This document shows, one piece after another, positions 3,811 through 43,724 of a DNA stretch of 64,000 bases. The stretch lies in NCBI GenBank assembly GCA_009838845.1, contig VXRD01000126.1, positions 1-64,000 on the forward strand, in the 5' to 3' direction. How positions within the stretch are numbered: position 1 is the first letter of the stretch; every line of letters begins with the position of its first letter. The stretch comes from Gemmatimonadota bacterium. Its GTDB lineage: Bacteria > Latescibacterota > UBA2968. The position numbers and the translations under genes are program-made. The notes beneath the pieces were generated by a model. It had not been told where the DNA came from. It was given only the letters and a program-made list of their open reading frames with translations, and made no database searches.

Positions 3811-6619
3811 ATTGATATTGAACGGACAGACGATATGCTTTGCCGAAGGCGAGACCCTGCTGGACATTACATCTCGTCAGGGATTGGAAATTCCGACCCT
3901 GTGTCACGATCCGCGTTTAGAACCCGCGGGTGCGTGTCGCTCTTGTCTTGTGGAAGTTGATGGCGAGCGGTTGATGACGCCGGCCTGTGCGCGCATCGCA
4001 CAAGACGGGATGGTGGTGACGACCGAGAATGAGCGTATTGATCGGCACCGCCAAACCCTGATGGCTTTGTACATGACTGATCATCCGCACGAGCGCGAAG
4101 TATCGGAAGTCGGTTCGCCGGATTTATTGCTGGATATGGCTGCCGAGTTCGATGCGCCAATGGATTGGGGATGGATGGAGCCGATGCGAGGAGATAGGGA
4201 GGATCGCAATCCCTATGTGGATTTTAATCCCGATACCTGTATTGCGTGTGCGCGATGCGTGCGCTATTGCGAGGAAATAGAAGGTGTTTCGGCTATTACT
4301 CTTGCGGGTAGAGGGTCACATACGACGATTTCTACGGTGGAAGAAAAATCTCTGCTGGATACGACGTGCGAGTTGTGCGGTGGATGTATCGATGTGTGTC
4401 CAACTGGTGCTATGAATGAAAAATTGCCACTGATGCGCGGGCAAAAACCCGAGCGCGAACTGGTAAAGGTGCGGTCAACTTGCAACTTTTGTGGGGTGGG
4501 CTGTCAGCTCGATCTCAATGTGGATTCAGAAGGTCGCGATGGCAAGGGGCAGATTGTAAAGGTGACGAGTCCTCCGCCGGGCACGACGACCAATGACGGC
4601 AATTTGTGTGTCAAGGGACGCTTTGCCTATGACTTTGTGCACCACAAAGATCGGTTGACTGAGCCGCTTGTGCGCGGTGAGGATGGTGTATTGTATCCAA
4701 CTACCTGGGACGATGCGCTCGAAAGAGCAGCGGAAGGATTGTTGGGCGTTGCAGAGCGACACGGCGCAGATGCCCTGGGTTTTGTGAGTTCGTCGCGGTG
4801 TACGATGGAGGAAAATTTTCTCGTTCAGAAAATGGCGCGCGCGCTGTTTCGGGCAAATCACGTCCATCAGTGTGCGGCCACGTGACACGCGCCAACTGTG
4901 GCCGGTCTGGTCGAAACATTTGGTGCGGGTGCTATGACGAATTCAATTGGCGAGATACGCGATGTTGATTTTCTGTTTGTGATTGGCAGCAATACGAGCG
5001 AGGCACATCCGATTATCGCTATGGAAATGAAACGCGCGATTCGCAAAGGCGCGACCTTGGTTGTCGCCGATCCCAGGGCGATCTGGATGACGTCTATTGC
5101 GGAAAAGCATTTGCAACTCAATCCCGGTACAGATGTGTGGTTGCTCAATGCCATGGCGCATGTGATTGTGGCAGAGGATTTGATCGATCGCGAATTTATC
5201 GAAAATCAGACTGAAAATTTTGAGCAGGTCAAAGAGGCTGTCGCGTCTTATACACCCGAAAAGGCTGAAGAGATAACGGGTATTTCAGCAGATGATATTC
5301 GCTGGACTGCGCGGCAGTACGCTACGACGGAAAAAGCGGGTATATATTATACGCTGGGCATTACGGAACACGCACACGGTACGGATAATGTGTATGCGCT
5401 TGCAAATCTGGTTTTGATGACGGGGCATCTGGGCAAGCCATCGACCGGGATGAATCCACTGCGCGGACAGAATAATGTGCAGGGTGCGAATGACGCGGGT
5501 GCTACGCCGATGTTTTATCCGGGTTATCAGCGTGTGGATGATCCAGAAGTGCGGGCAAAATACGAAAAGTCCTGGGGTGTTCCGCTGTCCCCGGTGCCGG
5601 GTCTGAATCTCAATGAGATGATGAAGACGGTGGGGGAACAGATGCGCGGCTTTTTTGTGATGGGTGAAGATATTGTGTTGTCCGAACCCAATGTTCTCGA
5701 GTTGGAAAAGGGATTGAATAATGTTGATTTTATCGTGATGCAGGATGCGTTTATGAATGAGACGGCGCGTTTTGCCGATGTGATTTTGCCCGCAGCCGTG
5801 TTTGCCGAGAAGGAGGGTACGTTTACCAATTCAGAGCGCCGCATTCAGAGGGTTCGCAAAGCAGTTGATCCTCCTGGTGAAGCGCTTCCAGATTGGGAGA
5901 TTCTGGTTATGCTGGCGAATAAGATGGGCGCGAATTGGTCGTATAAAGATCCAGCGGAAGTTTATGCCGAGATGGTTAAAGACGTTCCCCAATTTGCCGG
6001 TATCAGTCACGAGAAATTGGAAAAGATAGATCGCGTAGCAGGTGAAGAGAGCATAGCGGGCTTACAGTGGCCGTGCCCCGATGCGGATCATCCGGGTACA
6101 AAATTTTTACACGAAGATGGCATTTTGCGCGGTAAGGGATTGTTTATGCCCGTGCATTATATCCCACCGGCGGAATTGCCAGATGAAGATTACGGTCTTT
6201 TTCTTTCTACGGGACGCACGCTGTATCACTACAATGCCGCAACACAGACGCGCCGAGAGTCCGGGCTTGATGCGAAACAGTCCGAGGCTTTTGTAGAGTT
6301 GCATCCGAGCGATGCGCGGAAACGGGGTGTTCATCACGGGGATGTGGTGGAGGTGACGACGCGGCGCGGAAGTGTGCAGTTGCGGGCTATTTTGTCGCGG
6401 CAAGTGCGCCCGGGGTGTATCTGGATGCCCTTGCATTTCGCCGAGGCGCGCGCCAATGTGTTGACGAATGATGTTGGCGATGCGGTGACGGGGACAGCCG
6501 AGTACAAGGTGTGTGCGGCGGAGGTGCGATTGGTTGAGTCAATGCCCGATAATGAAACGTTCTTTCCGGGGAGCTATTACTACGAAGAGGGACCGGGGTT
6601 GCAGCGCGTGGGTGATTGA
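3803..6619 (+). CDS. fdhA: Formate dehydrogenase catalytic subunit, selenocysteine-containing (TGA at 4883-4885)
   Basis: This molybdo/tungstopterin enzyme oxidises formate to CO2. It is one 938-aa protein read through an in-frame TGA, which I take as Sec361; without recoding it would appear as two ORFs. Order: [2Fe-2S] ferredoxin (Cys34, 45, 48, 62); two [4Fe-4S] motifs ('CIACARCVRYC', 'CELCGGCIDVC'); the MopB cluster motif 'CNFCGVGC' with a distal Cys; then 'HQCAAT-U-HAPTVAGL', exactly where formate dehydrogenases carry Cys or Sec. The C-terminal half has the bis-MGD motifs ('MTGHLGKPSTGMNPLRGQNN') and a molydopterin-binding C-domain. The ATG at 3803 has GAGGAG upstream and overlaps the NuoEF-like gene. 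A SECIS hairpin lies at 4892-4923. The cell must carry selA, selB, selC and selD elsewhere. Confidence 0.92.
4892..4923 (+). promoter_or_regulatory. Bacterial SECIS hairpin (selenocysteine insertion element)
   Basis: Beginning six nucleotides after the TGA, CCAACTGT (4892-4899) pairs with ACATTTGG (4916-4923) at 7 of 8 positions. Above it GGCC (4900-4903) pairs with GGTC (4909-4912) around the loop GGTCT, with GAA bulged on the 3' side. Eighteen nucleotides separate the TGA from the GGTCT loop, the same spacing and loop motif I recall for E. coli fdhF. SelB binds such a loop to deliver Sec-tRNA. Confidence 0.85.
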
Positions 6620-35656: not shown

Positions 35657-36517
35657 ATGAGTCACAACATTTTTGAGCGCGCTGAAGAATTTATCTATAA
35701 TAATGCGCGGCTGCTCGAGCGACAGTTGTTTGCCTATCATTTCAAAGGGGGTTCACGGGAGCAGGTGCTGACAGCGCTTCGCGCCTATCAGAATGAAGAT
35801 GGCGGATTTGGGCATGCCCTTGAACCGGATATTCGCTGTCCAGAAAGCCAACCCGTGCCGGTGCAGCACGCGCTTGAGTTTCTCAATGCCGTGGGTTTTG
35901 ATGCCGATATGGTGCAGCGCGCCTGCGATTATTTGATGGAGATTACTACGCCCGAAGGTGGTGTTCCGTGGTTGTTGCCTTCTGCACATCGCTATCCGCG
36001 AGCATCATGGTGGAATACAGTTGAAAATCCACCGGCATCTCTGAATCCAACGGCTGCGATTGCTGGTTTGTTACACAAGAATCGCGTTCAACATGCGTGG
36101 GTAGATTGCGCGACCACGTACTGCTGGTCAAAGATAGCCGATCTGCAACCTGCGGAAATGCATGAAATGGGTGTGGTGCTGACTTTTCTCTATTATGTGC
36201 CGGACCGGGCGCGCGCAGAGCGCGAAATTGAGCGTCTGGTCGGTGGGATGTTTTCTGCGGGTCTCGTTGCCGATGCAAATGCTACAGGCTATGTCCGCAA
36301 GCCGCTCGACTGGGCGAGTACGCCCGATCATCCGCTTCGCGATTACTTTCGAGAAGAGGATATTGCGGCAAATCTCGATGCAATTGTTGCGGGACAACAA
36401 GCAGATGGGGGGTGGAATATTACCTGGCAAGCCGTGAGTCCGGGTTGCGAACTCGAATGGCGCGGCTGGGTGACGCTGGGTACACTGCTGACGCTCAGGG
36501 CGAATGGGCGATTGTAA
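35657..36517 (+). CDS. Prenyltransferase/terpene-cyclase-like alpha-toroid protein
   Basis: A 286-aa protein with QW-like alpha/alpha-barrel repeats ('ALRAYQNEDGGFGHALEPD', 'TTPEGGVPWLL', 'GQQADGGWNITWQ'), as in squalene-cyclase and prenyltransferase folds. It is much shorter than true cyclases (~600 aa) and lacks a DxDD motif, so cyclisation of squalene is unlikely. Such short proteins are common as unassigned genes. It lies between the YkgJ-like and RidA-like genes with 15- and 17-bp gaps. Confidence 0.75.
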   Translation: MSHNIFERAEEFIYNNARLLERQLFAYHFKGGSREQVLTALRAYQNEDGGFGHALEPDIRCPESQPVPVQHALEFLNAVGFDADMVQRACDYLMEITTPEGGVPWLLPSAHRYPRASWWNTVENPPASLNPTAAIAGLLHKNRVQHAWVDCATTYCWSKIADLQPAEMHEMGVVLTFLYYVPDRARAEREIERLVGGMFSAGLVADANATGYVRKPLDWASTPDHPLRDYFREEDIAANLDAIVAGQQADGGWNITWQAVSPGCELEWRGWVTLGTLLTLRANGRL

Positions 36518-36534
36518 TTGTACAGAGAGTTATC

Positions 36535-37284
36535 ATGTTGATTGCTAAGATAGAAGGGCACTACCACTTTCTCAAGGGTATTGACCCCTATTCCTGCGGC
36601 GTTATTGCCGATCCCGGCTGGGAGATTGTCCATGTGACACTGGAACAGGCGCTGCCCTGGCGGCATGGGTTTGATCGGGTTGAGGCGCATTTGCAGGAGG
36701 TCGGGCGAGATCTACAGGCATTGTGCGGTATGGAATTGCGTTCGCCTGCGCCTTTTACGATGGCGGGGTTCATTGCTTTCAATCGGGATTATTGTCAGGT
36801 GCTCAAGGCATGGGACCTGTACGTGGGAGAGTTGAATCCAGTAGCGCGCACCAATGTGGCACCGCTGTTCGATCCGCCGGGGGAACCGGTGCTGCACGCA
36901 TTTTCCTATACGGTGCCAGCAGCGACTGATATACCCCGGACTCTGGTGATCGCCGGGGCAGGGGAATTGCGCGAGGGGGTACTTGTGGAGCAGGGTATTG
37001 TCCGCAGTGGGGATATCAGTGCAGAAGCGATGCGGGAGAAGGTTAGTTATGTGGTGGATGTAATGGTCGAGCGTTTGTTTGGTCTGGGTGGGGCTTGGGA
37101 GATGATCAATGCGGTGGATGTGTACACGGTGCATTCTCTGGACGGGCTGGTAGAGGATATTTTGTTCAATCGCATTGGGCCAGCCCGACGGCACGGTTTC
37201 CGCTGGCACTTTACCCGGCCGCCAGTGGTCGATATTGAATTTGAGATGGATATGCGAGGGGTGCGTCGTGATCTGGTGATATAA
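36535..37284 (+). CDS. RidA-like (YjgF-fold) protein of unknown substrate
   Basis: A 249-aa protein. The C-terminal half has a RidA-like pattern ('TLVIAGAGELREGVLVEQGIV', 'SAEAMREKVSYVVDVMVERL', 'INAVDVYTVH'), reminiscent of the larger 2-aminomuconate-deaminase-like RidA group. The N-terminal half ('GHYHFLKGIDPYSCGV') is not recognised. A Cys and conserved His lie in this N-terminal part. The start at 36535 is modest ('agagagtt' upstream); an earlier reading would overlap the preceding gene by over 100 bp. It is the third gene of the 35096-37284 operon. Confidence 0.6.
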   Translation: MLIAKIEGHYHFLKGIDPYSCGVIADPGWEIVHVTLEQALPWRHGFDRVEAHLQEVGRDLQALCGMELRSPAPFTMAGFIAFNRDYCQVLKAWDLYVGELNPVARTNVAPLFDPPGEPVLHAFSYTVPAATDIPRTLVIAGAGELREGVLVEQGIVRSGDISAEAMREKVSYVVDVMVERLFGLGGAWEMINAVDVYTVHSLDGLVEDILFNRIGPARRHGFRWHFTRPPVVDIEFEMDMRGVRRDLVI

Positions 37285-37332: not shown

Positions 37333-37362
37333 TTGACATATTCCACTGAGATTGCGTAAGTT
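37333..37362 (+). promoter_or_regulatory. Promoter of the branched-chain amino-acid operon
   Basis: A perfect TTGACA (37333-37338) is followed after 18 nt by TAAGTT (37357-37362). Transcription would start near 37369, about 40 nt before the leader ORF. The -10 match is weak. Confidence 0.55.
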
Positions 37363-37408
37363 ATTCAATCTAAAATACATTATTACTTCTTTTCCCAAGT
37401 CTTCTATT

Positions 37409-37561
37409 ATGCGCTCAATTTCTACATTGGCGATTTCCACCATGCGAGACGGTGTACAACTGCGTATCCGTTCTTTGCGCCTTTCTATTGCAGGGCGAGT
37501 TCTGCTCATTCTGCACCTTCTCCTGCTCGTGAGCCTTTTTCTATCTATTATCATTCATTAG
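37409..37561 (+). CDS. Putative branched-chain amino-acid leader peptide (50 aa)
   Basis: An ORF starting at ATG 37409 (ATG 37442 is an alternative) ends in 'VLLILHLLLLVSLFLSIIIH'. Of these last 20 residues 15 are Leu, Ile or Val, in runs. It lies ~100 bp upstream of ilvN and the leu genes, and mutually exclusive RNA stems follow its stop codon. This is what an attenuation leader should look like: a ribosome starved for Leu/Ile/Val-tRNA would stall here. There is no good ribosome site, and the N-terminal part ('RSISTLAISTMRDGVQLRIR') is longer than in enteric leaders. A hydrophobic small membrane peptide is the alternative. Confidence 0.6.
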   Translation: MRSISTLAISTMRDGVQLRIRSLRLSIAGRVLLILHLLLLVSLFLSIIIH

Positions 37562-37564
37562 TTT

Positions 37565-37640
37565 CAGGCTCTTTCCCCAACTCTTGCGACAACACCCATA
37601 ATAAGGACAGAGCCTGTGATTTACTCATAGGTCGTTGTCA
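37565..37640 (+). promoter_or_regulatory. Candidate attenuator: mutually exclusive stems between leader and ilvN
   Basis: Stem A pairs CAGGCTCTTTCC (37565-37576) with GGACAGAGCCTG (37605-37616), 11 of 12 positions. Stem B pairs GCGACAAC (37585-37592) with GTTGTCAC (37633-37640), 7 of 8. The order A1-B1-A2-B2 means they cannot both form as simple hairpins. A ribosome stalled on the leader's Ile/Leu run would mask A1, only 4 nt past the stop codon. No T-run follows either stem, so the outcome may be Rho-dependent or translational. Confidence 0.55.
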
Positions 37641-37664
37641 CTTCATGTATTCGGGAAATGTTTA

Positions 37665-38156
37665 ATGACTCACAAACACACGATAAGTGCCCTGGTCGAA
37701 AATCATTTTGGCGTTCTGTGCCGCGTTGCAGGCCTTTTTTCCAGTCGCGGATTCAATATCGATAGTCTGTCCGTTGGCGAGACAGAAGACCCGAGTATTT
37801 CTCGCATGACCATTGTCGTCGGTGGCGACGATAGCGTGCTCGAGCAAGTGGTCAAGCAATTGGATCGCCTCATTGACGTCATTCGCGTGATCGATATTAC
37901 ACAGGGCCAATTTGTTGAACGCGAACTCATGTTGGTCAAGGTCAAAGCCGATACAACAACGCGTGCAGAAATTATCCAAATTGCCGAAGTGTTTCGCTCA
38001 AATATTGTCGATGTATGTCCCAGATCGATGACCATAGAGGTTACGGGCAAAAATGATAAAATTCAAGCTATCATTGGCATGCTCAGTTCTTTTGGCATCG
38101 AGGAAATCGCGCGTACAGGCACAGTTGCCCTGTTGCGAGATTCCGCGACACAATAA
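37665..38156 (+). CDS. ilvN: Acetolactate synthase small (regulatory) subunit
   Basis: A 163-aa regulatory subunit; it makes acetolactate synthase active and sensitive to valine. The N-terminal ACT domain is plain: 'TISALVENHFGVLCRVAGLFSSRGFNIDSL' and 'SRMTIVVGGDD'. The C-terminal domain ('DVCPRSMTIEVTGKNDKIQA') is complete. I placed the start at ATG 37665, preceded by GGGAAA; a TTG at 37635 would fall inside stem B. No catalytic ilvB gene is in the window; it is usually immediately upstream. Confidence 0.92.
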   Translation: MTHKHTISALVENHFGVLCRVAGLFSSRGFNIDSLSVGETEDPSISRMTIVVGGDDSVLEQVVKQLDRLIDVIRVIDITQGQFVERELMLVKVKADTTTRAEIIQIAEVFRSNIVDVCPRSMTIEVTGKNDKIQAIIGMLSSFGIEEIARTGTVALLRDSATQ

Positions 38157-38169
38157 GGAGGTGATGCAG

Positions 38170-38283
38170 ATGGATCCCGATCTCGGTGATCTTACCGAAG
38201 AACTCGCTCTCGTTTGGCAGATGGGGATAGACCGCCAGAGCGTTCCATCTGCCCATTTCCTCTTCGATTCTGGCATGTTTTAG
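38170..38283 (+). CDS. Unknown 37-aa protein between ilvN and leuA
   Basis: A short ORF beginning 'MDPDLGDLTEELALVWQMGI' and ending 'LFDSGMF'. A perfect AGGAGG (38156-38161) overlaps the ilvN stop and lies 8 nt before the ATG at 38170; an in-frame ATG at 38164 is too close. It is acidic and has no membrane segment. It fits tightly between ilvN and leuA (13 and 9 bp gaps), so it should be translated. I know of no family. It may be a small regulator or only an aid to leuA translation. Confidence 0.6.
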   Translation: MDPDLGDLTEELALVWQMGIDRQSVPSAHFLFDSGMF

Positions 38284-38292
38284 GGAATAACA

Positions 38293-39849
38293 ATGTCAAA
38301 CGCGAAAAATAAAGACCGCGTCATTATTTTTGATACCACTTTGAGAGACGCGGAACAGACGCCGGGGGCTTCGCTCGCGTTGCGCGAAAAAGTTGAAATT
38401 GCCCATCAACTCGCGCGGCTCAATGTCGATGTTATCGAGGCCGGATTTCCCATATCGTCCGATCAGGACTTCAATGCCGTGCGGCGTATCGCACACGAGG
38501 TTGAAGGTCCTGTTATTTGCGGTCTGTCTCGCGCAATTTTCAAAGATATTGACCGCGCAGGTGAAGCTTTGAAAGATGCGCCAAATCCGCGCATACACAC
38601 GTTTATTGGGACATCGCCGCTCCATATTTCCATGGTTGGCAAAACGCCCGCTCAAGTTCTGCAAATGGCTGTTGATGCGGTTGCGCGAGCTAAGTCGCAT
38701 TGCGACGATGTGGAGTTTTCGCCGATGGATGCTGCGCGCACAGAGCCGCAATATCTCCTCGACGTGATCGAGGCTACCATTGAAGCGGGTGCGACAACCA
38801 TCAATATACCCGATACCGTGGGCTACGCCGTTCCCGACCAGTTTGGCCGCATTATTCGCAATATTTGCGAGAAAGTGCCCAATGTCGATCGCGCCATTAT
38901 CAGTGTCCACTGCCACGACGATTTGGGCATGGCGACTATCAATGCTCTCGAAGCACTCAGAAATGGCGCGCGTCAGGTCGAATGCACGGTTAATGGGTTG
39001 GGTGAACGCGCGGGCAATACCTCGCTTGAAGAAGTGGTTATGGCCGTCAAGACGCGCGGGGATTATTTCGATCTCTATACGGATATCAAGACGCGCGAAA
39101 TCGTAAATACGAGCCGTCTGGTCAGCCGCCTCATGGGTATTGTCGTTCCGCCCAACAAGCCCATTGTAGGAGCCAATGCATTTGCACATAGTTCGGGTAT
39201 CCATCAGGACGGGGTACTCAAGGACCGCGAAAATTTCGAAATTATCGATCCCAAATCTGTGGGCTGGGAAGAATCGAGTATTGTGCTTACGGCGCGTTCT
39301 GGTCGCCACGCATTGCGCCATCGTCTGGAAGAGCTCGGCTATCATCTCAATCAGGATGAATTAAATATCGCTTATGAGCGTTTTGTCAAAGTTGCAGATA
39401 AAAAGAAGGAAGTTTATGACGAAGATCTCATGGCTATTGTGGAAGATGAAATTCGAGACTTTCCCATGCGGTTCGTGCTGGACTATTTGCATACTGTGAG
39501 TGGCACCGGTACGGTTCCCTCTGCGACGGTTCGCATTGGTATTGACGGTAAAAACCACGTCCAGGAATCTGCCTGGGGCGATGGACCGGTAGATGCAACG
39601 TATCGGGCGATCAAGAAAGCCACAGATAATACAAATACAAAAGTGGAAGAATATACTATCCGCGGCGTTACCGGGGGTGCCGAAGCGATGGGAGAAGTCA
39701 CGGTCAATGTGTCGTGCAATGGACGCCTGACCAGGGGACGCGGCGTTTCAACCGATATTATCGAAGCCAGTGCCAAAGCTTTTCTCGATGCGCTCAATCG
39801 CCTGGCCATTCAGCAAGACAATCACAAGGAGCGAGAACCAACCGTTTAG
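38293..39849 (+). CDS. leuA: 2-isopropylmalate synthase
   Basis: The first committed enzyme of leucine synthesis: acetyl-CoA plus 2-ketoisovalerate gives 2-isopropylmalate. The 518-aa length fits the long bacterial form with a leucine-binding regulatory domain. The catalytic barrel has 'FDTTLRDAEQTPGASL', 'HTFIGTSPLH', 'NIPDTVGYAVP', 'SVHCHDDLGMA' (metal HxH) and 'VNGLGERAGNTSLEE'. The C-terminal LeuA dimer domain runs from ~375 ('SGTGTVPSATV') to the end. Feedback inhibition by leucine is expected. Start 38293 follows GGGAATAAC. Confidence 0.95.
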   Translation: MSNAKNKDRVIIFDTTLRDAEQTPGASLALREKVEIAHQLARLNVDVIEAGFPISSDQDFNAVRRIAHEVEGPVICGLSRAIFKDIDRAGEALKDAPNPRIHTFIGTSPLHISMVGKTPAQVLQMAVDAVARAKSHCDDVEFSPMDAARTEPQYLLDVIEATIEAGATTINIPDTVGYAVPDQFGRIIRNICEKVPNVDRAIISVHCHDDLGMATINALEALRNGARQVECTVNGLGERAGNTSLEEVVMAVKTRGDYFDLYTDIKTREIVNTSRLVSRLMGIVVPPNKPIVGANAFAHSSGIHQDGVLKDRENFEIIDPKSVGWEESSIVLTARSGRHALRHRLEELGYHLNQDELNIAYERFVKVADKKKEVYDEDLMAIVEDEIRDFPMRFVLDYLHTVSGTGTVPSATVRIGIDGKNHVQESAWGDGPVDATYRAIKKATDNTNTKVEEYTIRGVTGGAEAMGEVTVNVSCNGRLTRGRGVSTDIIEASAKAFLDALNRLAIQQDNHKEREPTV

Positions 39850-39863
39850 AATAGAGGTTATAG

Positions 39864-41261
39864 ATGGGTCAAAGTTTATTTCACAAAGTTTGGGATGCGC
39901 ATGCGGTGCGAACGCTGCCTTCGGGGCAGACGCAGTTGTTTATCGGCCTGCATCTCGTTCACGAGGTTACCAGCCCGCAGGCTTTTGATATGCTCAGAGA
40001 GCTGGGTCTCACCATTGCGTATCCAGATCGCACATTTGCCACGGTTGATCACATTGTGCCCACAAGCGATGTGGCACGCCCATTTGCCGATGAGATGGCC
40101 GAGGACATGATGATCGCCATCGAAGAAAATGCCCAACAGTTTGGCCTTTCTTTTTTTGGGCTCGACGACGAGCGTCAGGGTATTGTCCACGTTATTGGTC
40201 CTGAACTGGGTCTGACACAGCCGGGCATGACCATTGCCTGCGGCGATAGCCACACTTCAACGCACGGAGCTTATGGCGCCATTGCATTTGGCATTGGCAC
40301 CTCGCAGGTGCGCGATGTGCTTGCCACACAATGCCTGGCGATGGATCCTCTCAAAGTGCGCCGCATTGAAGTATCAGGCACGCTGGGCAAGGGGGTTTAC
40401 GCCAAAGATGTCATTCTCAATATTATTCGCAATCTCGGCGTAAAAGGCGGTACGGGCTATGCTTACGAATATGCCGGATCCGCTATTGAAGCTATGGATA
40501 TGGAAGCGCGCATGTCGGTGTGCAATATGTCTATTGAAGGCGGCGCGCGCGCGGGGTACGTGAATCCCGATCAGACGACTTATGACTATCTGCGGGGACG
40601 CACTTATGCACCTTCGGGCGAAGCTTTTGATCGCGCGGTTTCCTGGTGGCGTTCTATGGCTTCCGATGCCGATGCCGATTACGACGATGTTTATCATCTC
40701 GATGGCTCCGCTCTTGAGCCTACTGTGACATGGGGTATCACGCCGGGGCAGGCACTTTTTGTATCAGAAAAAGTACCGGCGCTGACGGATCTGCCCGACG
40801 ATGAGCGCGATGTTGCAGCCGAAGCGTATGATTATATGGACTTAAAACCGGGTACGGCTATATCTGGTATGCCGATTGACGTGGCTTTTGTGGGGTCGTG
40901 TACCAACAGCCGTATCTCTGACCTCAGAGAAGCTGCCAGAGTCGCCGAGGGACACAAGGTGGCCGATGGCGTCAAAGCGCTTGTTGTGCCGGGGTCCAAA
41001 TCCGTTCTCAAGACAGCCGAAGCGGAAGGCTTGCACCACATTTTTGAAGATGCTGGCTTTGAATGGCGCGGTGCGGGGTGTTCGATGTGTTTGGCTATGA
41101 ATCCCGACAAATTGCAGGGACGCGAAGTGTGCGCGTCGTCGAGCAATCGCAATTTCAAAGGGCGTCAGGGCAGTCCCACGGGACGCACGCTCTTGATGAG
41201 TCCCGCAATGGTCGCAGCCGCGGCTATCGCAGGTGAGGTTATTGACGTACGCGCGATGTAA
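39864..41261 (+). CDS. leuC: 3-isopropylmalate dehydratase large subunit
   Basis: A 465-aa aconitase-family subunit that carries the [4Fe-4S] cluster and isomerises 2- to 3-isopropylmalate with LeuD. Visible motifs: '[19 protein letters not shown]', '[21 protein letters not shown]', cluster cysteines in '[11 protein letters not shown]' and '[11 protein letters not shown]', and the end '[20 protein letters not shown]'. Complete. Its stop codon is immediately followed by repeat copy B, which separates it from leuD by 115 bp. Confidence 0.96.
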
Positions 41262-41376: not shown

Positions 41377-41970
41377 ATGAATTCATCAGTGATTCAGCAG
41401 GTAGAAGGGCGCGCGATTCCCGTTCGGGGAAATGACATCGATACCGATCGCATTATTCCCGCGCGATATCTTCGCGCCATCACGTTTGACGGCCTGGGTG
41501 AGCACGCATTTGAAGACGACCGCAAATCAAATCCCGATCACCCATTTGATGATCCGCGCTATCAGGGCGCATCCGTACTCATCGCCAATGACAACTTTGG
41601 ATGTGGATCATCCAGAGAACACGCGCCTCAGGCGCTGATGCGCTGGGGGATTTGTGCCATTGTGGGCGAATCTTTTGCCGAAATTTTTTTGGGCAATTGC
41701 ACGGCTATGGGCGTGCCTTGTCTGACGGCTTCGACCGGGGATATTGTCAAAATTCAGGACGCTGCCGAAGCAGATCCACAACGGGAAATGACTGTTGATT
41801 TAAAAGAGAAAAAATTGACATTTGGCGATATAGAAGTCGATCTGCAGATTGCAGAAGGCAATCGGCTCCAACTCATTGAAGGCGCGTGGGATGCTACAGG
41901 CATGCTCCTCGAAGGCCGCGATGCGGTGCGGGAGGTTGCCAATAAACTTCCCTATGTTACGGGCTTTTAA
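41377..41970 (+). CDS. leuD: 3-isopropylmalate dehydratase small subunit
   Basis: A 197-aa swivelling domain partner of LeuC. Key motifs: 'GNDIDTDRIIPARYLRAITF' at the start, 'LIANDNFGCGSSREHAPQAL', 'AIVGESFAEIFLGNCTAMGV'. Length and order are normal. The start ATG follows AAGG at the end of repeat copy B, so the repeat lies in the untranslated gap of the leuCD transcript. A terminator follows 8 bp after the stop, though the operon may continue through to cimA. Confidence 0.95.
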   Translation: MNSSVIQQVEGRAIPVRGNDIDTDRIIPARYLRAITFDGLGEHAFEDDRKSNPDHPFDDPRYQGASVLIANDNFGCGSSREHAPQALMRWGICAIVGESFAEIFLGNCTAMGVPCLTASTGDIVKIQDAAEADPQREMTVDLKEKKLTFGDIEVDLQIAEGNRLQLIEGAWDATGMLLEGRDAVREVANKLPYVTGF

Positions 41971-42143: not shown

Positions 42144-43724
42144 ATGTCTGAACTTGTACAAATCTACGATTCGACCCTTCGAGACGGCGCGCAGGCAGAG
42201 GGTATTTCATTTTCCGCTGAAGACAAAACCATGATTGCACAGCATCTCGATGCGATGGGCATTCACTATGTTGAAGGCGGTTGGCCCAATCCGACGAATC
42301 CCAAGGATCTCGAATTTTTTGACCGCGTACGCGATCTCGAATTTCACAACACCAAAATTGTCGCCTTTGGCAGTACATGCAGGGTTGACAATCCGCCCGA
42401 AGACGATCCCACCCTCACCACTTTGCTCAGGGCAGGAACAGAGGTCATCACGCTCTTCGGGAAAAGCTGGACGCTTCACGTGACCGATGTGTTGCGGGCA
42501 ACACTGGACGAAAACCTGCGAATTATCAGGGATTCTTGTGCCTGGCTCAAGGAGAACGGGCGAGAAGTTATTTACGATGCCGAGCACTTTTTTGACGGTT
42601 ATAAAGCCGATCCCGAATACGCGCTGGAAACTTTGTTGGCTGCGCAAGAAGGCGGGGCAGAGGTGCTCGTTTTGTGCGACACCAATGGCGGTACGATGCC
42701 ATATCAGATACAACAGATTATCAGCGGTATTCAACCCAGGCTCGATGTCCCTCTGGGTATTCACACGCACAATGATGCGGGAATGGCTGTGGCCAATAGC
42801 ATTGTCGCACTCGAAATGGGTGCCACGCATGTGCAGGGTACGATCAATGGATATGGGGAGCGCTGTGGCAATGCCAACCTGTGTTCGGTGATTCCAAATA
42901 TTGAATTTAAGCTGGGGAAGACGGCTATTGGCGCGACAAATCTCACAAAGCTCATGGAATTATCGCGGTTTGTCAGCGAAATCGCCAATGTCTATCACGA
43001 CCACCGCCAACCTTATGTGGGCGAGAGTGCTTTTGCACACAAAGCAGGTGTTCACGTCGATGCCATGCTCAAACAACCCGTCGCGTATGAACACTGCGAT
43101 GCGGAATCTGTAGGCAATCAGCGCCGTTTTTTGCTTTCAGAACAATCGGGCGGCGGGGCTGTTGCTGCAAAATTGCACCATCTGATTCCGGGCCTGGACA
43201 AACGTCATCCAACTGTCCAGAAATTGCTGCAAAAAATTAAGCAACTCGAACACGAGGGCTATGTTTTTGAAGCCGCTGAAGCGTCGTTTGAAATTATCGC
43301 CCGCCAGATATTGGGCAGTATTCGCAGACCGTTTAAGCTCATCAATTACAGGACGATCAATCGCAAAAGTGCTGCAGGCTCTGAAGTAGAAGCCATTGTG
43401 AAAATAGAAATTGAAGGACAGATCTACCACACGGTTGGCGAAGGCGATGGTCCTGTCAATGCCCTCGACTCGGCATTGCGCCTGGCTCTTGAACCCAAGT
43501 ATCCCATGCTGAAAGATGTGCGTCTTGAAGACTACAAGGTGCGCGTGTTATCCAGTGCCGATGGTACGGCAGCTAAAGTGCGGGTGCTGATCGAGTCTTC
43601 TGATCGGCGGCGCGTGTGGAGTACTGTGGGTGTATCTGAAAATGTCATCGAAGCCAGTTGGACAGCACTGGTCGATAGTTTGACTTATAAATTGCTACTT
43701 GACGGTATTATCGTTGTTGACTGA
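42144..43724 (+). CDS. cimA: (R)-citramalate synthase
   Basis: This 526-aa LeuA-like enzyme condenses acetyl-CoA and pyruvate to citramalate, the start of the threonine-independent isoleucine route. 'YDSTLRDGAQAEGISFS', 'YVEGGWPNPTNPKDLEFF' and 'FGSTCR' mark the CimA subgroup rather than LeuA. 'CDTNGGTMP', 'GIHTHNDAGMAVANS' and 'NGYGERCGNANL' complete the active site. A LeuA-type allosteric domain follows. Start ATG 42144 has GAGGAAAT. LeuCD can serve both this route and leucine synthesis, so the gene fits its neighbours. Confidence 0.92.
   Translation: MSELVQIYDSTLRDGAQAEGISFSAEDKTMIAQHLDAMGIHYVEGGWPNPTNPKDLEFFDRVRDLEFHNTKIVAFGSTCRVDNPPEDDPTLTTLLRAGTEVITLFGKSWTLHVTDVLRATLDENLRIIRDSCAWLKENGREVIYDAEHFFDGYKADPEYALETLLAAQEGGAEVLVLCDTNGGTMPYQIQQIISGIQPRLDVPLGIHTHNDAGMAVANSIVALEMGATHVQGTINGYGERCGNANLCSVIPNIEFKLGKTAIGATNLTKLMELSRFVSEIANVYHDHRQPYVGESAFAHKAGVHVDAMLKQPVAYEHCDAESVGNQRRFLLSEQSGGGAVAAKLHHLIPGLDKRHPTVQKLLQKIKQLEHEGYVFEAAEASFEIIARQILGSIRRPFKLINYRTINRKSAAGSEVEAIVKIEIEGQIYHTVGEGDGPVNALDSALRLALEPKYPMLKDVRLEDYKVRVLSSADGTAAKVRVLIESSDRRRVWSTVGVSENVIEASWTALVDSLTYKLLLDGIIVVD

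Follow-up and report, generated by a model that had tools for sequence, protein, structure and literature searches.

Probable attenuator of the ilvN-leuACD-cimA operon

The region upstream of ilvN in the window (the whole stretch of 64,000 nucleotides that was analysed) is very probably a ribosome-mediated transcription attenuator of the ilvN-leuACD-cimA operon. Read from the DNA, its overall anatomy is that of a classical four-segment attenuator, with segment 1 in leader codons, segment 2 after the leader stop, and segments 3 and 4 downstream. The initial annotation, which described a candidate attenuator at this place, was right in kind: the leader ORF and its codon run are conserved, the stems are mutually exclusive and covary, and a further site is kept at a fixed distance. 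From these features we infer ribosome stalling, a regulatory response, and a release mechanism. For the stop itself, in most relatives as in the window's own genus, we lean towards a U-less mechanism assisted by a pause or by Rho.

It is proposed that scarcity of charged Leu (also Ile and Val) tRNAs would make the ribosome stall at those leader codons and cover segment 1, whereupon segments 2 and 3 would pair (2:3) and RNA polymerase would continue into ilvN. With an ample supply of these amino acids, the ribosome would reach the TAG codon and cover segment 2 or allow the 1:2 pairing. With segment 2 masked, 3:4 would pair and transcription would stop early. The 3:4 hairpin would probably halt the polymerase at a YRTRY site 14 nt further on, and Rho or another factor would aid the release.

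Promoter and operon

The candidate promoter and the genes of the operon are as follows.

37333..37338, + strand: -35-like box TTGACA (direct reading; kept in the genus members whose upstream region was read)
37357-37362, + strand: candidate -10 box TAAGTT, with an 18-nt spacer from TTGACA (direct reading)
37665..38156, + strand: ilvN, acetolactate synthase small subunit (TIGR00119, 217 bits)
38293..39849, + strand: leuA, 2-isopropylmalate synthase (TIGR00973, 708 bits)
39864..41261, + strand: leuC (TIGR00170, 618 bits)
41377..41970, + strand: leuD (NF002458, 206 bits)
42144..43724, + strand: cimA, citramalate synthase of the isoleucine branch (TIGR00977, 712 bits)

In the window the promoter amounts to a -35-like box and a weak -10 candidate; it is clearer in relatives (TTGACA-N17-TATCTT). 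An attenuator is expected to place a short ORF rich in end-product codons between the promoter and the first structural gene, and the leader ORF described below lies in this way between the TTGACA box and ilvN-leuACD-cimA. The upstream neighbour (36412-37284) matches CnbZ, of the 2-amino-5-chloromuconate deaminase family, and is unrelated to the leu operon. In the window's genus (g1), ilvC is outside the operon (38156-38293 separates ilvN from leuA in the window) and a long-form ilvC is found elsewhere (G000:C49).

The leader ORF and its codon run

37409..37561, + strand: leader ORF of 50 codons and TAG (ATG at 37409, TAG at 37559-37561; kept among relatives)
37499-37558, + strand: putative regulatory Leu/Ile/Val run, the last 20 leader codons (15/20 are L/I/V)

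The ORF is translated as MRSISTLAISTMRDGVQLRIRSLRLSIAGRVLLILHLLLLVSLFLSIIIH*. A recount agrees with the 15 Leu, Ile, or Val codons among the last 20 reported previously, and this number is far outside chance. It is the highest among the 1752 pre-stop stretches of the window, where the runner-up has 12, and among 44,140 stretches from 20 shuffled copies of the window none was above 12. No clear Shine-Dalgarno sequence was seen upstream of the leader ATG in the window. Leader lengths within the genus are 47-54 codons; among 11 genus members they differ by whole codons in every case, whereas the sequence beyond the stop varies in length by single bases, which is the pattern expected of a translated ORF. 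In the same genus comparison, nonsynonymous changes are not rare and not strongly suppressed, which is unsurprising if it is mainly the codon class that matters.

The Leu-rich ORF might instead be the gene of a small membrane peptide, or its run might have arisen by chance; in neither case would it have a regulatory role. Peptides with a hydrophobic C-terminus would resemble it, and the tolerated nonsynonymous changes fit this explanation as well. It is nevertheless hardly credible, given that a Ser/Gly-Leu codon pair is fixed as segment 1, the stop adjoins segment 2, exclusive stems covary, and leu/ilv genes lie alongside throughout the class.

Alternative stems in the leader RNA

37531..37536, + strand: segment 1, GAGCCT within Ser-Leu codons, pairing with segment 2 (putative protector; 6 pairs, duplex -10.5 kcal/mol)
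37565..37576, + strand: segment 2, CAGGCTCTTTCC, beginning 4 nt past the leader stop (pairing with segment 3)
37577..37604, + strand: loop between segments 2 and 3, C-rich and G-poor (base composition)
37605..37616, + strand: segment 3, pairing with segment 2 (putative antiterminator; compensatory changes)
37612..37632, + strand: 3:4 hairpin, GCCTGTGA-TTTAC-TCATAGGT (arms 37612-37619/37625-37632; -8.9 kcal/mol)
37586..37641, + strand: genus-specific outer stem (arms 37586-37593/37634-37641; 66% of cells paired overall, intact in g1 by reading)
37644..37648, + strand: YRTRY site CATGT, 12-16 nt past the 3:4 hairpin, proposed pause/release site (fixed offset among relatives)

The 12-position stem that the initial annotation placed 4 nt after the ORF stop was found at 37565-37576/37605-37616, with 11 of 12 positions paired. 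The 2:3 and 3:4 stems have GCCTG in common and are therefore mutually exclusive. The 2:3 pairing is the stronger one (-15 kcal/mol vs about -9 kcal/mol for 3:4 in the window), so repression would depend on segment 2 being masked by the ribosome. An 8-position stem had also been described previously. It exists as the outer stem (37586-37593/37634-37641, 7/8 pairs), enclosing 3:4 and excluding 2:3; its role as the main switch was rejected because it is conserved in g1 only, and the decisive alternative is 3:4. The 3:4 helix, the segment-1 arm in the leader codons, and the conserved site past the hairpin are additions to the earlier description.

Conservation and covariation among relatives

Homologs of ilvN were collected at the levels of genus, family, order, and class, and their upstream regions were read. 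In families f1-f3, 20 genomes carry this ilvN, and their 20 leaders were aligned. A short ORF ends 100-162 nt before ilvN in 19 of the 20, with 9-15 L/I/V in its last 20 codons; the leader of the remaining genome (G014, locus L013), ending in ...FPYTLPLFASLIAAISIIA*, is under the cut-off and was recognised by reading. Relatives with an intact ilvN-leuA and neither codon run nor stems had been named as the observation that would speak against an attenuator, and 20 of 20 ilvN relatives keep both. The alignment, also proposed at that time, gives a conserved Leu/Ile/Val run and covarying stems, and adds 3:4 as the alternative partner.

The consensus of segment 1 is GAGCC(T), inside Ser/Gly-Leu codons whose distance ahead of the stop hardly varies; that of segment 2 is GGCTC..., of segment 3 ...GAGCCT, and of segment 4 TCAnAGGy. 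An attenuator should have two exclusive stems that share a segment, and here both are backed by compensatory change. Across the 20 leaders, 92.8% of cells are paired in 2:3 (covariation 0.157 vs 0.090 when shuffled and <=0.094 when slid) and 88.8% in 3:4 (covariation score 0.235 vs 0.125 in shuffles). The 1:2 pairing (96.5% of cells in f1-f3, weak in f4) is nearly invariant and hence uninformative on covariation. The stop and the regulatory codons are placed for ribosome masking of segment 1 or 2: in f1, f3, and f4 the leader stop abuts or overlaps segment 2, at distances of -2 to +6 nt. In f2 the stop is 9-11 nt from segment 2, the 3:4 helix is poor, and 1:2 is stronger. Class-wide covariation was counted in an ungapped alignment of segments extracted by our own choice (27 distinct sets), whose rows are related and not independent; on this basis double-change cells number 23 for 2:3 (10.9 in shuffles) and 13 for 3:4 (5.0 in shuffles), the 3:4 score being 0.271 vs 0.153.

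A covariance model (R1) was built from the 20 f1-f3 leaders and used to search 64 genomes of the phylum. It gave exactly one match per training genome (20/20), always at this locus. Outside the training set it matched ten genomes of family f4 (E 1e-5 to 2.5e-3), upstream of ilvC-leuA and with leaders such as MQPQFSIRAFDSSPVLPARGLGLLRPLLLLPLLLISLLLI*; eleven further f4 leaders were found by reading. These f4 sequences are related, and counts over them are not independent. In f4 segment 2 (TAGGCTTCG or TAGGCTCC) includes the stop codon TAG, and segment 3 is CGAAGCCT or GGAGCCT; the inner pairs thus differ on both sides between lineages. The operon setting varies as well: in G023 leuA follows the element directly and the element itself comes after a different ilvC, and in G011 and G012 a short ilvC is kept between ilvN and leuA. 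The attenuator thus stays with the leucine genes though the operon does not always begin with the same gene.

In the f2 genomes G019 and G020, R1 had no match, and neither ilvN nor a true leuA was found there. Matches in G048, G049, and G056 (E 0.02-0.3) were taken as chance; the one in G056 was read. Applied to ilvN loci of other phyla, R1 found nothing outside Latescibacterota-type contigs. Three genomes from outside this class but within the phylum were also read; in these ilvN comes immediately after ilvB, with no visible leader. The upstream regions of trpE, hisG, and the long-form ilvC in ten genomes contained no convincing similar leader.

The termination step

The 3:4 hairpin in the window is followed by CGTTGTCACTTCATG. 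The initial annotation had seen no U-tract, and indeed the U-tract that a canonical intrinsic terminator has after its hairpin is absent here. A promoter/terminator scan reported no canonical terminator in the leader; the same scan also skipped the G011 and ilvB terminators, probably through its stem and loop limits. The tail CGUUGUC might be regarded as a degenerate U-tract, in which case 3:4 alone would terminate, with no extra factor, as in an ordinary intrinsic attenuator. This is supported by G011, where TTTTTTTT (U8) directly follows 3:4, the only such case among those read, and by the U4-U5 near the 3:4 hairpin of G014 and G029. However, in 17 of 18 rows there are 1-3 T among the first eight positions past 3:4, and the ilvB attenuator of the same genome (below) has U9, showing that the lineage makes U-tracts where needed. 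We consider an ordinary intrinsic stop unlikely.

The preferred U-less stop draws on the sequence past the hairpin. Position-specific conservation extends about 18 nt beyond 3:4 and then fades. Within it, 13 of 17 genus-level rows share a Y-R-T-R-Y site whose first base is exactly 12 nt beyond the hairpin, whereas in 5000 within-row shuffles no offset was shared by more than 5 rows, a figure weakened by the fact that the pattern was named after inspection. The sole out-of-sample case is G023, found afterwards, which by direct reading has TGTGT at this offset. The E. coli pause consensus is G-10 Y-1 G+1, and in the hisL pause 10 nt separate the stem from the pause site (PMC9291695). The YRTRY site, divided as YRT/RY, resembles the Y-1 G+1 part of that consensus; the spacing would be 14 nt if YRTRY is the pause, vs 10 nt in hisL (PMC9291695).

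Between hairpin and start codon there are 29-255 nt, while the +14 site stays fixed and the first gene varies (ilvN, ilvC, leuA). The conserved output would accordingly be at the level of RNA and not at the start codon, and this arrangement fits control of transcription rather than translation. The other option is translational control, in which the alternative stems, or the mini-ORF MYSGNV* (37645-37665), would gate translation of ilvN. The mini-ORF overlaps ilvN in the genus, and segment 2 TTTCCCC could pair with GGGAAA near ilvN. The same variable distance and changing first gene argue against this, as does the +14 site, which in several genera is ATA or GTA and no start codon, and translational control appears improbable. 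The +14 ATG as the start of a second leader was likewise rejected as a general feature. The mini-ORF MYSGNV*, which in the window's genus runs into the start of ilvN, has six codons, and short f4 ORFs begin near the same place (ATGCCCTGA, MSIKQPQFLNS*).

As to Rho, C exceeds G in 41 of 41 homologous 2-3 loops (mean 0.38 vs 0.10), and Rho is encoded. Among 78-nt stretches of the window, the one in the leader with the largest excess of C over G ranks no higher than the top 2.7%. A C-rich, G-poor loop and an encoded Rho are compatible with Rho involvement and prove nothing. More tentatively, 3:4 and the fixed-geometry site 14 nt downstream may form a distinct termination module that replaces the U-tract; release would take place at a pause timed by the hairpin, probably with help from Rho. 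The module would be kept across the class in front of differing operons (ilvC-leuA, leuA, ilvN-ilvC-leuA, ilvN-leuA).

A second probable attenuator before ilvB

The same genome has a second probable leader-peptide attenuator ahead of ilvB (G000:C109, locus L228, about 53.7-54.0 kb; also L229, L212, and L213), with the promoter TTGACA-N17-TATCTT, the peptide MIHQITTSRIAITTAVVGRVVVLVPM*, the predicted antiterminator GATGATGGGA/TCCCGTCATC, and the terminator CCGTCAT...ATGACGG followed by T9. It is common to G005, G007, and G010, and by its sequence it is of the canonical, textbook type with U9. Because the lineage makes canonical attenuators, the U-less one at ilvN-leu is a real difference. One genome with two attenuators, with a U-tract at ilvB and without one at ilvN-leu, offers a direct test of U-less stopping by a translation-controlled hairpin. 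In G019, a genome without an ilvN or leuA match, the Shine-Dalgarno sequence of ilvB (locus L210) is directly preceded by a strong hairpin carrying T7 (CCGCCGTTGAGTTCGCTCGACGGCGGTTTTTTT).

Relation to known systems

The leu and ilv leaders of E. coli contain a Leu/Ile/Val leader ORF, segments 1-4, and exclusive antiterminator and 3:4 stems. The element described here shares with enterobacterial leuL, ilvBN, and ilvGMEDA the type of leader codons, the four segments, the exclusive stems, and the pathway genes; it differs in its longer leader (47-54 codons in the genus), mostly no U-tract, and the fixed YRTRY site 14 nt after 3:4. The tnaC leader of E. coli belongs to a catabolic operon, is induced by tryptophan, and has no 2:3/3:4 switch. 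It is unlike the present element in its catabolic operon and missing switch, and like it in having a leader peptide and, probably, in a non-intrinsic stop, termination at tnaC being Rho-dependent (cited so in PMC1262725). Pausing in leuL was described in PMC9291695.

The ilvB-II motif (Corynebacterium), Leptospira ilvB, and the multi-phylum ilvB-OMG motif combine an upstream ORF rich in branched-chain amino acid (BCAA) codons with alternative stems (PMC10272879). Like the present element, they lie by acetolactate synthase genes, some outside enterics. However, these motifs precede ilvB, and ilvB-II ends in a U-containing terminator, whereas here ilvN, ilvC, or leuA comes first and the U's are mostly missing; the ilvB attenuator of this genome resembles them more than the ilvN-leu one does. 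The actinobacterial LEU element, in which the Leu run pairs with the leuA Shine-Dalgarno box in a pseudoknot (PMC1262725), also has a Leu-run leader ORF before leuA, but the present element has classical 2:3/3:4 stems away from the start codon. Actinobacterial cys leaders, for which Rho was proposed, resemble it in having no obvious terminator (PMC1262725). The initial annotation correctly gave enterics and actinobacteria as groups with leader attenuation, but the distribution is wider and includes Firmicutes (hisS/hisZ leaders; PMC2965389), S. aureus, with a leucine-rich attenuator peptide (PMC5794164), and Leptospira (PMC10272879). This kind of attenuation is thus not new to bacteria generally; the variant is mostly U-less and, in the window, outside the intrinsic-terminator type.

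The Rfam release 15 covariance models, run on the window and five loci, reported no leader family, even at permissive E-values. In the open-licence literature we found no attenuator paper on Latescibacteria/Latescibacterota, a search that could miss subscription work. The present analysis documents probable leader-peptide attenuation in Latescibacterota. In a Spirochaetes bacterium contig (L067, about 4580-5060), an ORF ending in SRIVSVSIIIVLVLLLILGIPGSFAS* lies 162 nt before ilvN, and it is possibly an independent leader in another phylum.
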